Part shown: positions 17,156-22,590 of the stretch, piece by piece
Layout of the letters: the number at the start of each line of letters is the position of its first letter
Numbering within the stretch: the first letter of the stretch is position 1
DNA from: Microvirga sp. VF16
GTDB lineage: Bacteria > Pseudomonadota > Alphaproteobacteria > Rhizobiales > Beijerinckiaceae
Assembly: GCF_016864375.1 (NCBI RefSeq)
Contig: NZ_CP069354.1
Location: 3,321,501-3,385,500, forward strand
Direction of reading: 5' to 3'
DNA length: 64,000 bases
Program-made: the position numbers and the translations under genes
The notes under the pieces: model-generated
Seen by the model: only the letters and a program-made list of their open reading frames with translations
What the model was told of the DNA's origin: nothing
The model's database searches: none

Positions 17156-18206
17156 ATGCGAAATCATGACCTGCCCGTTTTTCAGAACCTTCGCGACTTC
17201 ATGACGTTTCTGGAAGCATGCGGTCGTCTCGTCCGGATCCGGGAGCCGGTATCCGTGGTGCATGAGATCACCGAGATCCATCGGCGGGTGCTCCGGGAGC
17301 ACGGACCTGCCCTCCTATTCGAGCGTGCCGTCCAGCCGGATGGCCGGCCTGCGGACATGCCTGTCCTCGCCAATCTCTTCGGGACGACCGAGCGCATCGC
17401 CTGGGGGCTCGGGGTCGACCCGGGCGAACTCCCCAGCCTTGGCGAGATGCTCGCCGAGCTGCGCGAGCCGCGCCCGCCCCAGGACATCGCGGATGTCTGG
17501 CGAAAACTCCCGTTGGCACGAGCGGCCCTCGCCATGCGCGCCATGGAGGTGACGGGACTGTCCCGAACCGTGCTGACCGGCGATGCCGTCGATCTCGGAC
17601 AACTTCCGGTTCAGATCTGCTGGCCCGGCGAGCCCGCGCCGCTCATCACCTGGCCGCTCGTCATCACGCGCCCGCCGGACAGCATTCACGTGAACGACTA
17701 CAATGTCGGCGTGTACCGGATGCAGGTGCTCGGTCGAGATCGGACCATCATGCGCTGGCTCGCGCATCGTGGTGGAGCCCGTCATCATCGACAGTGGCAA
17801 GCGTCCAGCGAGCCGATGCCGACCGCTGTCGTGATCGGGACGGATCCAGCCACGACGCTGGCTGCAGTTCTGCCCCTCCCGGAGAACCTGTCGGAGTTGC
17901 GTTTCTCGGGTCTTCTGAGAGGGCGGCGCTCCAGGCTCACGCCCTGCGTCAGCATTCCTCTTCAAGTGCCGGCAGACGCGGAGATCGTCATCGAGGGGTT
18001 GGTATCCGCCAGCGAGACCGCACCCGAGGGACCCTTCGGGGATCACACGGGCTACTACAATGCCGTCGAACGATTTCCCGTCATGCAGGTAATCGCCATC
18101 ACGATGCGCCGGGATCCGATCTACCTGTCCACCTTCACCGGACGCGCGCCGGACGAGCCTTCCCGCATTGGCGAGGCCCTCAACGAGCTGTTCGTTCCCA
18201 TCCTAA
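17156..18206 (+). pseudogene. ubiD: ubiD, 5' part (interrupted by insertion sequences)
   Basis: UbiD is the prenyl-FMN-dependent decarboxylase that acts on 3-polyprenyl-4-hydroxybenzoate in ubiquinone synthesis. This part encodes the N-terminal ~350 residues, including NDYNVGVYRMQVLGRD and EGPFGDHTGYYN. It stops being UbiD-like exactly after LNELFVPIL, where IS481 and IS701 sequence begins. The apparent open frame to 18613 runs into the insertion. The gene resumes at 22124. Removing 18207-22123 restores a 1518-bp frame (505 residues) without any other defect, so the disruption looks recent. Confidence 0.95.
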
Positions 18207-18207
18207 C
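18202..18207. repeat. IS481 target duplication, left copy (CCTAAC)
   Basis: CCTAAC here and at 19297-19302 directly flank the IS481 element. The last C is the first base of the IS701 terminus, which shows that IS481 came second. Confidence 0.8.
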
Positions 18208-19296
18208 TGTCTGGTGGCGGAACGTTGTTGGGACCAAGTGCGTTGCGCGATTGAGGAGTATGCTTGGCGCTTTGACGGCCTGCGGCGCCGAGCTCCTCAT
18301 CGCAGGAGGACATGATGCACTCCCTTCATCCGCAAGCCCGCACCACTCCAGCCGTCCGCCAGGAGATTGCCCGCTCATCCGAGCCGACGGGCGTGCTGGC
18401 CCAGCGCTTCAGTGTGAGCACCGAGACGGTCCGCAAATGGCGCAAGCGCGGCCCCAAAGACTGTCAGGACCACAGCAGCCGGCCGCACAAGCTGCCCTGG
18501 AGGGCCACCGAGGAGGAACGCGCCATCGTCTGCGCCCTGAGGCAGGCCACCGGCTTTCCGCTCGACGATCTGACCTTCGTGGTCACGCATTTCCTGCCGC
18601 ATCTCAACCGTGATGCGGTCTACCGCATCCTCAAGGCTGAAGGCTTAGGCCGCCTGCCACCGGCGCAGCAGCGCCAGCGCCGGAGCGGCACCTTCAAGGA
18701 CTACGATCTCGGCTTCGTGCACATGGACATCAAACACCTGCCCAAGCTGAGAACCGCCAATGGCGAGAGCCGCAAACGCTTCCTCTATGTCGCCATCGAC
18801 CGCTGCTCGCGCTGGGTGCACCTGGCCGTCAAAGACGACGAGCTGGCCATAAGCGCGATTGCCTTCCTCAAAGAAGCGATCCGCGCGTTTCCCTTCAAGG
18901 TCACCCACGTGCTCACCGACCGTGGCTCGTGCTTTACCGCTGATGGCTTCGAGGACGCCTGCCACCAGTTGAAGGTGGAGCATCGCAGGACCAAGCCGTA
19001 TACGCCGCAGACGAATGGTCTCGCCGAGCGCTTCAATGGACGGGTGCAGCGTGAAGTGCTCGGCATCACGATCTACAGCCATGGGGATCTGGAGACGCTG
19101 CTCAAGGGCTTCAACCAAGCCTACAACAGAAGACGCCAGCGCGTGCTCAAGGGGCGATCACCGGACGAGGTCGTGCGAAGCCGCTTGGTCGCTGAGCCGA
19201 AGCTGGCCAATCGGCGCGCGAAGCCACCCGATCCACACGCTTTGCCTCAAGCCCTCCAGGTCGTCGCTCACGCCAAGGAGGTCTCGCATCCAGACA
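18208..19296 (+). mobile_element. IS481-family insertion sequence
   Basis: A 1089-bp element with imperfect terminal repeats (TGTCTGGTGGCG at the left, inverse of CGCATCCAGACA at the right) and a 6-bp target duplication CCTAAC on both sides. It has one transposase gene on the plus strand. Confidence 0.85.
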
Positions 19297-19301
19297 CCTA
19301 A
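18312..19301 (+). CDS. IS481-family transposase
   Basis: A DDE transposase of 329 residues. The N-terminal helix-turn-helix (about 20-60) is followed by the integrase core, with catalytic residues in FVHMDIKHL, VLTDRGSCF and GLAERFNGRVQRE. The frame runs through the right terminal repeat and takes its stop codon (TAA, 19299-19301) from the duplicated target rather than from the element. The ORF appears intact. Confidence 0.93.
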   Translation: MMHSLHPQARTTPAVRQEIARSSEPTGVLAQRFSVSTETVRKWRKRGPKDCQDHSSRPHKLPWRATEEERAIVCALRQATGFPLDDLTFVVTHFLPHLNRDAVYRILKAEGLGRLPPAQQRQRRSGTFKDYDLGFVHMDIKHLPKLRTANGESRKRFLYVAIDRCSRWVHLAVKDDELAISAIAFLKEAIRAFPFKVTHVLTDRGSCFTADGFEDACHQLKVEHRRTKPYTPQTNGLAERFNGRVQREVLGITIYSHGDLETLLKGFNQAYNRRRQRVLKGRSPDEVVRSRLVAEPKLANRRAKPPDPHALPQALQVVAHAKEVSHPDT

Positions 19302-19302
19302 C
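19297..19302. repeat. IS481 target duplication, right copy (CCTAAC)
   Basis: Second copy of the 6-bp duplication. It contains the CTAA that is the left target duplication of IS701 (19298-19301) and supplies the IS481 transposase stop codon. Confidence 0.8.
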
Positions 19303-20717
19303 ACTACAGTTGCACCCGTCGGTTTTGCGCTAATTACCTCCTGATCTGACACAGGAGGCTGCCATGACCGGTGTGGCCGTCGAGCAGATGCTCGAACTCT
19401 GGTGCGTGGAGTTGCGTCAGGTCAAAGCTCACCTCAAATCGCTGTTTGCCCATCCCAGCATCGCCGCCTCGGCCGCCGCCTTCCTCGACGGGCTGCTGGG
19501 GCCGGAGCGGCGCAAGACCGGCTGGATGCGCGCGGAAGCCGCCGGCGATTCGGGCCCTTGGCGCCAGCAGGCGGTGCTCGGCCGCAGCCACTGGGACGCC
19601 GATGCGCTGCGGGATATGGTGCGCGACTATGCGCTCGAGACGCTCGCCTCACCCGGGGCGGTGCTGGTGATCGACGAGACCGGCTTTCTCAAGCAAGGCC
19701 AGCGCTCGTGCGGGGTAGGCCGACAATACACCGGATCGGCGGGCAAGATCACCAGTTGCCAGATCGGCGTGTTTGCCACCTACGTGTCGGAGAAGGGCTG
19801 CGCCTTCATCGATCGCCAGCTCTATCTGCCCAAGGACTGGACCAACACGCCCGAGCGCCGCACGGCGGCTCAGGTGCCGGATGCCATTCGCTTTGTCACC
19901 AAACCCGAGATCGCCGCCGAGATGATCGAGCGCGCGATCGCGGCTGACGTGCCGTTCGACTGGGCGGCGACGGACTCCATCTACGGCGTGGGCTCCATCG
20001 AGATGCTGTTGCGCCGGGCCGGCAAGGGCTATGTGCTCGGCGCTCATGCGACCGATCAGTTCAACTCCTGGGGCGACAAACCTGAGGTGGCCGGCATGGC
20101 CGAGCAGATCGCAAAGGCTCTTGCTCCCGGGACTTGGCGACGCCTGTCGGCGGGAGACGGCACCAAGGGAGCGCGCCTGTACGAATGGGCTTATCTAGAG
20201 TTGGCGGATCTCGAGGCGGATGAGTACAACGAAGACCTCACCGGCCTGTGGACGCGCGGCCTGCTGATCCGACGCAGCATCGCTGATGGGGATCTGGCGT
20301 TCTTCTCGACCTGGTGCCCGGCCGGCACGTCGATCGAAGAGTTGGTGCGGGTCGAGGGCCAGCGCTGGGCGATCGAAGATGCGTTCGAGACCGCCAAAAC
20401 GGAGCTGGGGCTGACGCACAACGAAACCCGCTCGTGGCATGGCTGGCACCGGCATGTCTCGCTGGTGATGCTGGCCTTTGCCATGATGGCGGTGGTGCGC
20501 GAGCGCGCCAACACTCTCACGTCACCCCAAAAAAGAAACGACGAAGCCCGGCTCCAGCGCTGGTGCGATGGTCTGTCCAGGAAATCCGCCGTGTGGCCAC
20601 CCGCCTCCAGCAGCGTCGGATCGAGCCTGCCTTCGTGATCGCCTGGTCCGCGTGGCGACGCGCGCATCAGGCGATGGCGCAAACCTCACATCGCAAACGC
20701 AAGGTGCAACTGTAGTG
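19302..20717 (+). mobile_element. IS701-family insertion sequence
   Basis: A 1416-bp element with perfect 15-bp terminal inverted repeats, CACTACAGTTGCACC at 19302-19316 and its complement at 20703-20717. The flanking 4-bp CTAA (19298-19301, and 22120-22123 once the IS110 element is removed) fits the YTAR-type target duplication known for IS701. Confidence 0.88.
19364..20638 (+). CDS. IS701-family transposase, probably frameshifted near the C terminus
   Basis: DDE transposase with motifs LVIDETGFLKQG, GVGRQYTGSAGKI, WAATDSIYGVG and IEDAFETAKTELGL. The frame is normal for about 390 residues and then diverges after an A6 run at 20529-20534. In the -1 frame the family-like C terminus continues (VRWSVQEIRRVATRLQQRR and later RRAHQAMAQ) to a TAG at 20713-20715. 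Either an indel in the A-tract broke the gene, or slippage there makes a 450-residue protein. Confidence 0.85.
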   Translation: MTGVAVEQMLELWCVELRQVKAHLKSLFAHPSIAASAAAFLDGLLGPERRKTGWMRAEAAGDSGPWRQQAVLGRSHWDADALRDMVRDYALETLASPGAVLVIDETGFLKQGQRSCGVGRQYTGSAGKITSCQIGVFATYVSEKGCAFIDRQLYLPKDWTNTPERRTAAQVPDAIRFVTKPEIAAEMIERAIAADVPFDWAATDSIYGVGSIEMLLRRAGKGYVLGAHATDQFNSWGDKPEVAGMAEQIAKALAPGTWRRLSAGDGTKGARLYEWAYLELADLEADEYNEDLTGLWTRGLLIRRSIADGDLAFFSTWCPAGTSIEELVRVEGQRWAIEDAFETAKTELGLTHNETRSWHGWHRHVSLVMLAFAMMAVVRERANTLTSPQKRNDEARLQRWCDGLSRKSAVWPPASSSVGSSLPS

Positions 20718-20749
20718 CTTCTGTAATGGGCCGTTGGGTGTCAAGCCCC

Positions 20750-20970
20750 TGAGTGACTGTCCTGTCGCCGAAGTCTTGCTTCTGTTCGGGGTCGACGCGA
20801 GGCCGCCCCACCATGCCATCAGAGAGGATGCGGTCAGCCCATCTAAGGCGCGTGTTCCACCTCGATGAGATGCTCACGGCACTACTTACGGCTTGACCGC
20901 CTCCATCGTCCCGGCGACGGGACCTCAGGAGAACGGGACGATCGCCGCCCCGTTCCGAACGCTTGTTTCT
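20750..20970 (-). ncRNA. Candidate bridge (seeker) RNA region of the IS110 element
   Basis: Non-coding segment downstream of the recombinase. It contains four short matches arranged as two similar pairs. CTTCTGT (20779-20785) copies the element's left end plus core CT. ATGCC (20813-20817) is the inverse of its right end. CTAAGGCGC (20843-20851) copies the right target flank plus core CT. GCACTAC (20879-20885) is the inverse of the left target flank. This is the pattern expected of donor and target guide loops. RNA boundaries and transcription are not shown by sequence. Confidence 0.6.
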
Positions 20971-20971
20971 C

Positions 20972-22003
20972 CTATGCGGCAACGCCCTCCCGGTTCCAGC
21001 GGAAGGTGGTGCCGTCGATCCAGATGCGATGCAAAATGACCGCAAGCTTCCGGGCCAGCGCCACCTTGGCCCGCCGCATGCCGCGCCGCTTGGCCACCTC
21101 CAGCGCCCAGCGCTTGAGCGCAGAGAAGCGCACCGCGCGGGTGAGCAGGATATGGGCTCCTTCATAGAGCGCCGTGCGCACCATCGGATCGCCCACCCGG
21201 CTCACGGCTCCCGTGATATCCGTCTCGCCCGACTGATACTTCTTCGGGGTCAGGCCAAAATGCGCGCCCACCGCCCGCGAGCGCGAGAACCGCTCAGGAT
21301 GATCGACTGCGGACGTGAAGGTGACCGCGATCAGCGCGCCAACGCCTGGCACGCTCATCAGCCGCCGGCAGACCTCGTTCTTCCGGGCGATCGCCAGCAT
21401 GGCCCGATGCAATCGGGCAAACTCCATTTGCAGCGCGTCCCGGGCGCGCAGCATGGCTTCGGCAATCTTCTCCAGCATTTCATGACCGGCCGTGAGGGTG
21501 CGCACCCGGGCGGCAAACTGGCCCTTGCTGATCTCGCCGACCTTCAGGCCGAAGCCGCGCAACAGCCCACGCAGGCTGAGCTCGACATCACGCATCTTGG
21601 CCTGCAGCTGCTTGCGGGCCATGAGCAGCGCCCGCACTTCTTGCGCCGGCGGCGACTTGCAGTGGACGGGGCGGAACCAGCCCATGCGCAGCAGTTGGGC
21701 GATGCCGCGCGCATCGCGCCGGTCGGTCTTGACGATCATGGCCGAGAGCGCCGCCTTGACATGCCGCGTCTCCAGCAGCACGACTTCGAACCCAGCCTGC
21801 ACAAGGCCGGCATGCAGCCACTGCGAAAGTGGCCCGGCCTCCAGGCCGACGCGGGTGAGCGGTAGGCTCAGGCTGGCGAGAAAGGCCGCAAGCGCCTCCG
21901 GCTCGCTGGCGACCTTCGCCTCGCGGACAATCTGTCCGGAGCCATCGAGGATGCAGACGCTGCTCAGTTCCAAAGACACGTCGATTCCGGCATAGTAGTC
22001 CAT
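20972..22003 (-). CDS. IS110-family recombinase (transposase)
   Basis: A DEDD recombinase of 343 residues. The N-terminal RuvC-like domain starts YYAGIDVS and continues with GLEAGPLSQW and KTDRRDARGIAQLL. The C-terminal domain has MSVPGVGALIAVTF and the serine-containing GLTPKKYQSGETD. These are the expected catalytic segments, so the enzyme appears intact. It is transcribed towards the IS701 element, and the guide-like RNA region lies just downstream. Confidence 0.93.
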   Translation of the reverse strand: MDYYAGIDVSLELSSVCILDGSGQIVREAKVASEPEALAAFLASLSLPLTRVGLEAGPLSQWLHAGLVQAGFEVVLLETRHVKAALSAMIVKTDRRDARGIAQLLRMGWFRPVHCKSPPAQEVRALLMARKQLQAKMRDVELSLRGLLRGFGLKVGEISKGQFAARVRTLTAGHEMLEKIAEAMLRARDALQMEFARLHRAMLAIARKNEVCRRLMSVPGVGALIAVTFTSAVDHPERFSRSRAVGAHFGLTPKKYQSGETDITGAVSRVGDPMVRTALYEGAHILLTRAVRFSALKRWALEVAKRRGMRRAKVALARKLAVILHRIWIDGTTFRWNREGVAA

Positions 22004-22123
22004 GGCTGTCCCTCATGATGCTTGGGGCCGATCCGCTCGGACCCCGTTCCAACACACATCACTCTGAGGGACAGCCACCCCGCTCCGCTACTGCGTGAGC
22101 GGCAGGCCCATTACGGCATCTAA

Positions 22124-22590
22124 GGCGCCAGTTTCCAGAGGTCAGGGACGTATGGCTGCCGCCGGAGGCCTGTTCCTATCGGATCGCGGTCCTCTCCATC
22201 GCCAAGCGCTATGCAGGGCAAGCCCGCCGGGTGATGCTCGGGCTGTGGTCCCTACTCCCTCAGTTCACCTACACGAAGCTCCTCATCGTGGTCGATGAGG
22301 ATATCAACGTGCGCTCCTGGGACGACGTCATGTGGGCCGTAGCGACCCGCTCAGACCCCTCACGGGATCTCGTCGCCATCAACGACACGCCTATCGATTA
22401 TCTTGATTTCGCATCTCCGAAGTCGGGTTTGGGCGGCAAGCTCGGAATCGATGCCACCACCAAGATCGCTCCGGAAGTGGATCGCGAATGGGGACAAGTC
22501 CTCGCCATGGATCCTGCCGTTGCGGCTCGCGTCGACGAAATCTGGGGCCGGCTCGGGCTCGACGTGAATCATCTCAAGGGGACAGCCTGA
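22124..22590 (+). pseudogene. ubiD: ubiD, 3' part (after the insertion sequences)
   Basis: Coding resumes with [18 protein letters not shown] and continues through [31 protein letters not shown] and [11 protein letters not shown], the normal UbiD C-terminal third (about 155 residues). No start codon or promoter is evident, so it is unlikely to make an active enzyme alone. Its stop overlaps the ubiX start by one base, so ubiX lost direct coupling to the original ubiD promoter. Confidence 0.93.

Follow-up and report, generated by a model that had tools for sequence, protein, structure and literature searches.

Within the window, a 64,000-nucleotide stretch of contig NZ_CP069354.1 from Microvirga sp. 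VF16, an IS701-family element (19302..20717, plus strand; NF033540, 1.2e-120) adjoins a second mobile element (20720..22121, minus strand). The first is present to its last base, with a transposase open reading frame at 19364-20638, the terminal repeat CACTACAGTTGC and a matching target duplication. We identify the second as an IS1111-group (IS110-family) element from its DEDD recombinase, its downstream guide-RNA region, its subterminal repeats and its duplicated CT core. A ubiD decarboxylase gene is split in this part of the window (17156-22590): the N-terminal and central UbiD domains lie from 17156 to about 18150, the C-terminal domain falls inside 22231-22590, and IS481-like, IS701 and IS1111 elements are nested in the gap. 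A UbiX-like frame comes next.

The recombinase (20972..22003, minus strand, 343 aa) matches the NCBIfam model of IS110-family RNA-guided transposases (NF033542; 8e-74, score 248.8 against a cut-off of 140) and exceeds the Pfam cut-offs for PF01548 and PF02371. Its alignment to IS621 (8wt6; 2e-11) retains all five catalytic residues described for that enzyme (PMC11208158), with D8, E55, D94, D97 and S258 corresponding to IS621 D11, E60, D102, D105 and S241 (positions counted by hand).

Element boundaries are backed by near-identical copies elsewhere in the same genome. Written in the IS1111 convention, the sense strand runs AGATGCC...ACAGA: it starts AGATGCC-GTAATGGGCC and finishes GGCCCATTAC-AGA, followed by AG, and the second core CT (20718-20719), the target's own, lies outside the element. 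The subterminal inverted repeats, GTAATGGGCC at 20723..20732 with 3 bp outside it and GGCCCATTAC at 22105..22114 with 7 bp outside it, core included, are exact over 10 bp, against a usual 11-13 bp in IS1111 elements, and their outer extensions (AGATGCC, 7 bp; AGA, 3 bp) follow the 7/3-bp layout of that group (PMC11187229). As in the IS1111 group, the longer non-coding region lies downstream of the recombinase gene (20720..20971, minus strand; 252 bp against 118 bp upstream, core counted). An Rfam search of 20600-22200 returned three weak matches, all far under gathering scores, and no curated RNA family.

Candidate guide segments in the non-coding region

Four minus-strand segments of this region read as two pairs of guides. 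Donor guide 2 (20779..20785, RNA ACAGAAG) repeats, in the same sense, the right end ACAGA of the element and the core AG, and donor guide 1 (20813..20817, RNA GGCAU) is the complement of its left end AGATGCC. Target guide 2 (20843..20851, RNA GCGCCUUAG) has the same sense as one target half plus the core AG; target guide 1 (20879..20887, RNA AAGUAGUGC) is the complement of the other half, which lies within the IS701 end, and matches it at 6 of the 8 core-adjacent nucleotides. The target sequence for this element would read GTAGTGCTAAGG. A preliminary description of the locus had listed the underlying motifs, and all are where it placed them: CTTCTGT at 20718 (the element end) and 20779, ATGCC at 20813 (with three further occurrences inside the gene), CTAAGGCGC at 20843 and 22120, and GCACTAC at 20879. 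GUAGUGC precedes GCGCCUUAG in the RNA, so that the top-strand complement comes ahead of the bottom-strand match of the target, the order reported for IS1111 elements (PMC11187229).

The same description took a 12-base repeat, CATCTAAGGCGC at 20840 and 22117, as making a chance match unlikely. The repeat is real, but that argument gave it too much weight: its CAT is the element's own end and its CTAA the duplicated target of the neighbouring IS701, leaving only GGCGC as extra, and GGCGC is not complete in the same-guide copies L002, L003, L005 and L006 (L002 has GG). This overlap, with the shortness of the matches, is what could be said for a reading in which they arose by chance or are leftover repeats (earlier insertions, microhomology scars) and the site is picked by protein-DNA contact. 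Against it, when the non-coding region was shuffled 100,000 times at the mononucleotide level, with gaps of 20-60 nt permitted between halves and the right half of the target pair cut to CTAAGGC for leniency, the donor pair arose in 72 cases, the target pair in 4 and both together in none. Further, among seven hand-picked close relatives target guide 1 is hypervariable (pairwise identity 0.39) beside a scaffold before it at 0.93, and the guides covary with the flanks over 28 distinct guides, as described below. We regard a chance origin as hardly credible. The element almost certainly belongs to the IS1111 group and carries a downstream guide RNA whose two guide pairs would read its own joined ends and a target at the IS701 seam.

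Target guides covary with the insertion site

Loci with a related recombinase numbered 107 (7 own copies, 20 from relatives, and 80 that are the best 80 of 245), and 20 genera are named on the recombinase tree. Both ends were found in 63 of the 107, which gave 59 distinct elements after duplicate removal; the other 44 were dropped with ends unresolved. The filter demanded an AG core, so its constancy among retained elements is no evidence. A looser look at the 44 dropped loci found at least one end-like motif in 39, with AG at every listed end in 36 of these, at none in L101 and L124 and at one of two in L135; L117 has both ends and the core, but was missed by the search pattern.

Guide tests used one element per distinct guide (n = 28). 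Target guide 1 was compared with 8 nt of right flank, core excluded, allowing a shift of up to 2 for own and permuted flanks alike. It matched its own flank at 6.82 of 8 positions (permuted mean 3.78, maximum 4.79; 0/10,000 permutations), and the own flank was best or tied for best among the 28 flanks for 25 guides. When all elements whose flank was long enough were counted (57 of 59), the values were 6.70 against 4.14. A rigid-column test gave 5.18 against 2.68 of 8 (0/10,000), the lower values reflecting offsets of 1-2 columns in some guides. For one guide of the 28, even with shifts, no more than 2 of 8 nt agreed with the flank. The right guides of L060, L087 and L104 fit only with a 1-2-nt shift; in these three loci the guide-matching part of the target lies 1-2 nt away from the core, an offset that would fit guide pairing with a bulge.

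Divergent relatives illustrate the pattern, as with guide UGAAAGCC at flank AGGCTTTCACT (L136), AAUACCCGC at AGCGGGTATTA (L138) and UCAGUGCAC at AGTGCACTGAC (L141). A single-letter switch is seen in L097, with a GUAAUGC guide at CATTAC where relatives have GUAGUGC at CACTAC. L102 and L113 retain GUAGUGC at a CATTAC site, which a G:T wobble would allow; an rG:dT case has been reported for IS621 (PMC11208160). On the tree, target guide 1 changed at least 27 times, any letter difference in aligned columns being counted as a change.

Target guide 2 also tracks its flank, over a shorter span. Compared with 5 nt of left flank (n = 28), it matched at 3.14 positions against 1.71 in permutations (0/10,000), the own flank was best in only 12 of 28 cases, and the fit was poor past 2-3 nt: going outward from the core, the match rates were 0.96, 0.86, 0.47, 0.30, 0.46, 0.28, 0.23 and 0.30. 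Longer exact matches occur in L086 (GATCCAG), L122 (TATTGAG) and L127 (CATCTGAG). Across the family, target guide 2 fits well only in the 2-3 nt beside the core. With match rates falling beyond the first nucleotides, we rejected long guide 2 pairing of the kind seen in the 12-base repeat as a general specificity requirement.

The preliminary description had held that the guide reading would fail if related copies at other targets kept the same segments. Divergent relatives at other targets have different guides, each matching its own flank, and their donor segment 2 continues to correspond to the end of the element. Near-identical copies at different loci have unchanged guides, yet their sites have the guided part, GTAGTR plus CTAR, in common.

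Loci L061-L064 were considered as natural guide swaps and dropped, since they lose similarity after position 1072-1124 of 1402 or are rearranged. Their recombinases are 84-92% identical over the best segment and their non-coding regions are unmatched; similarity ends ahead of the guide RNA region. In several copies from same-genus genomes (L061-L066, L072, L074, L077 and L078), the left end is present and the stretch examined contains no right end.

Predicted, covarying fold of the guide RNA

Folding had been suggested as a check on whether the segments lie in loops. The single sequence folds mildly better than its shuffles (z -2.44) and is only mildly informative, so we relied on the alignment. 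RNAalifold on 50 sequences (window portion 20756-20939) predicted 26 pairs, 18 of them with two-sided compensatory change. With this structure fixed, 96.7% of cells pair, against 85.3 in shuffles, and 181 cells are changed on both sides, against 59.1 in shuffles (0/500) and 10-20 with the partner slid; further pair types show no excess over shuffles (351/500).

In the predicted structure, target guides 1 and 2 face each other in the internal loop that covarying helices 48-51/107-110 and 64-66/87-89 enclose, and the donor guides lie on either side of hairpin 140-148/155-163, in a multiloop closed by 22-29/180-187. All four segments thus fall in loops that covariation over the 50 sequences supports. 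The modelled fold matches the two-loop plan of bridge RNAs, with target guides in one loop and donor guides around a second covarying hairpin; donor-binding nucleotides have likewise been predicted in a multiloop for many IS1111 elements (PMC11208160).

Donor guides follow the element ends

Donor guide 2 and the right end are concordant in all 59 elements: the RNA has ACAGAAG in all 52 elements that end ACAGA and ACGGAAG in all 7 that end ACGGA. It changed four times on the recombinase tree (57 of the 59 elements), and guide and end switched together in all four independent pairs (sign test P = 0.125; four independent pairs cannot reach 0.05, and related elements are not independent). Donor guide 1 is exact for the left ends ATGATG (4/4, one clade) and ATGGGG (3/4), matches the common left end at 5 of 6 nt in four listed of 33 elements, and matches at 4 of 6 nt in L069, L113, L123 and L127. 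Reading of the left end by donor guide 1 is partial, and looser than that of the right end by donor guide 2. Permutation gave small margins for the two segments (5.05 against 4.40 of 6; 4.98 against 4.77 of 7), each beating all 10,000 permutations. The RNA's donor guides thus match the element's own ends as those of a bridge RNA do, the right end in 59 of 59 elements and the left end in part.

An RNA that guides target choice only, with the donor-like segments unused and the ends recognized by protein on the subterminal repeats, would also fit some of what is known. These repeats are long and conserved, and the seekRNA study (PMC11187229) names target matches in a 70-100-nt RNA and suggests that the two families may recognize their ends differently. 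The tie of donor segment 2 to the right end in every element, the four tree switches included, the exact donor segment 1 for ATGGGG (3/4) and for ATGATG (4/4), and the multiloop prediction for donor-binding nucleotides cited above all argue the other way. We judge a target-only RNA unlikely, and favour one in which both guide pairs would be used.

In the alignment of the 59 elements, TTGAC is present in each row, some 17-20 nt ahead of the right end. Joining of the ends in a circle would put AGAAGAT at a suitable distance from it, as for the junction promoter of these families.

The target lies at the edge of another transposon

At the window locus, the IS701 target duplication CTAA is present on the left at 19298..19301 and on the right at 22120..22123, and the CT of the right copy is the recombination core. 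The IS1111 element is placed exactly between the IS701 end and this right CTAA, parting the two. The junction sequence identifies the target as the seam between the IS701 terminal repeat (CACTAC...) and its YTAR duplication, here CTAA.

The genome (9.95 Mb, 6 contigs) has six near-identical full copies of the element and one at 93%, plus fragments. All seven full-length copies sit at GTAGTR|CTAR, the first half being GTAGTG or GTAGTA, and five of them (L001-L005) lie directly against a GTGCAACTGTAGTG-type end. Exact GTGCAACTGTAGTG ends number nine in the genome; five abut an IS1111 element and four do not. Target guide 1, AAGUAGUGC, matches the site of copy L007 at 8 of 8 nt, against 6 of 8 at the window's own site. 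By hand count, target guide 2 matches outward from the core for 7 nt in L001, 4 in L002, 1 in L003 and 2 each in L005 and L006, so the long guide 2 match of the window copy is an exception. In L001, the core CT is present only at the chosen IS701 end (CTAA outward); the opposite end is TTAG.

Two oppositely oriented copies, L003 and L004 (contig C1, about 4540000-4547060), bracket a 1.4-kb stretch with IS701-type ends (of the CATTACAGTTGC form), and each additionally abuts an outer IS701-type end.

Among 56 loci scored, a far repeat followed by a matching duplication was found in six (L001, L003, L007, L096, L097 and L141); three further loci were too short in flank to be scored. The repeat match in L141 does not exceed the highest of 50 shuffled controls; support for that locus comes from its IS630 frame and CTAG. 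L002, L005 and L094 have a far repeat without a matching duplication.

Neighbouring genes were surveyed in 49 loci with at least 700 bp on both sides; an open frame was present close to the right junction in 48 of them and close to the left junction in 45. NCBIfam matches on the right (E up to 1e-10, some partial frames under curated cut-offs) were IS701 in 9 of 48, IS630 in 3, IS5 in 3, IS1380 in 2, ISL3 in 1 and Tn3 in 1. On the left, about 7 of 45 loci had Pfam transposases, one of them DDE_5, among the matches listed (25 of 38 families), and NCBIfam IS630 appeared in at least 2 of 45, again among the matches listed (25 of 219 families). Of the nine IS701 neighbours, five are in the Microvirga genome and the others in L059, L092, L094 and L096; L097, outside the survey for its short left flank, also adjoins IS701. 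The Methylobacterium guide UCAGUGCAC adjoins IS630 in L141 and L151, and a methyltransferase frame instead in L150. L071 and L140 adjoin partial IS1380 frames. The IS5 frames of L006 and L098 begin almost 300 bp off, and a far repeat was looked for there and not found. Many other guide types had no adjoining transposase in the 49 loci.

Insertion sequences cluster, and a guide that happened to be set to one site could produce such neighbours without IS701 ends being chosen as such. That five of nine IS701 neighbours come from one genome would fit this, as would the transposases in left flanks (about 7 of 45, and IS630 in at least 2 of 45, among the matches listed). Clustering does not account as readily for a junction that is base-exact with a matching duplication in six loci, for DDE_5, the domain of the IS701 frames, beside the right half in 8 of 48 loci against 1 of 45 on the left among the matches listed, or for an unrelated guide, TCAGTGCAC, that adjoins IS630. 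We hold clustering alone to be improbable, if the least so of the alternatives weighed here, and prefer targeting of the IS701 seam itself.

A broader reading is possible, with the balance leaning slightly against it: an alphaproteobacterial clade of RNA-guided IS1111 elements may be specialized on the edges of unrelated DDE transposons. Swaps of the variable target guide alone would have moved the clade between IS701, IS630, IS1380 and possibly IS5 ends, the other guide half staying at a YTAG-type sequence beside the repeat, and docking at the seam would spare both host gene and host IS.

Discussion

The preliminary description's central proposal, an IS110-family element with readable donor and target guides, is borne out by guide-flank covariation, donor-end agreement and a covarying fold. 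It is refined in that the element belongs to the IS1111 group, the RNA is on the minus strand, one target guide is in effect a short one and the insertion site coincides with the end of another IS. The sequences themselves show the guides, how these covary with ends and flanks, the RNA fold, the boundaries and the identity of the target; we infer transcription, RNP formation, a circular intermediate and the strand-exchange chemistry from the literature. In the proposed mechanism, the element would encode a recombinase and a downstream guide RNA (bridge RNA or seekRNA) with two guide pairs, one reading its joined ends (donor ACAGA-AG-ATGCC) and the other the target (left half + AG + CACTAC). 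The recombinase would swap strands at the AG/CT core, leaving only the 2-bp core on both sides. With the target read being the seam between an IS701-type terminal repeat (CACTAC...) and the YTAR duplication, the element would dock flush on another IS without cutting into it.

The seekRNA elements ISEc11, ISPa11, ISKpn4 and ISPst6 (Siddiquee et al. 2024, PMC11187229) are described with a similar downstream non-coding region, 7/3 subterminal repeats, the same order of target matches in the RNA and no target duplication past the core. The Microvirga element differs from that description in its target, and in that donor matches can be seen as well, together with the way they covary with the ends. 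The IS621 bridge RNA of the IS110 group (Durrant et al. 2024, PMC11208160; Hiraizumi et al. 2024, PMC11208158) likewise has donor and target guide pairs and a CT core; the DEDD and Ser residues are common to both recombinases, and the short 4-bp half of the IS621 target guide resembles target guide 2. As described there, the IS110 group has its RNA upstream of the gene and no long subterminal repeats, whereas the present element has a downstream RNA with its guides in reversed order.

Guide RNAs of IS1111 elements, and one case of homing to transposon ends (IS4321/IS5075), are already published. Partridge and Hall (2003) reportedly described how IS4321 and IS5075, of the IS1111 family, target the terminal inverted repeats of the Tn21 family, at a site said to lie inside the repeat of Tn3-type transposons. 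These too are IS1111 elements that home to another transposon's ends, but their reported site is internal to the repeat, whereas the one described here falls at the seam where an IS701 repeat meets its YTAR duplication. A literature search, with most subscription literature outside its scope and so not proof of absence, retrieved the three 2024 papers on the mechanism and work on IS4321/IS5075; among the titles and abstract openings listed, none described IS701, IS630 or IS1380 ends as IS1111 targets.

With 28 distinct target guides carried by a single conserved scaffold, and the real insertion site known for each, these elements offer a natural reprogramming series for an RNA-guided recombinase. 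The donor guides add evidence from sequence that the guide RNAs of IS1111 elements read the donor ends in addition to the target. If homing to transposon ends holds across IS families, a sequence-specific element could persist by tracking repeated, harmless sites carried by other mobile elements.
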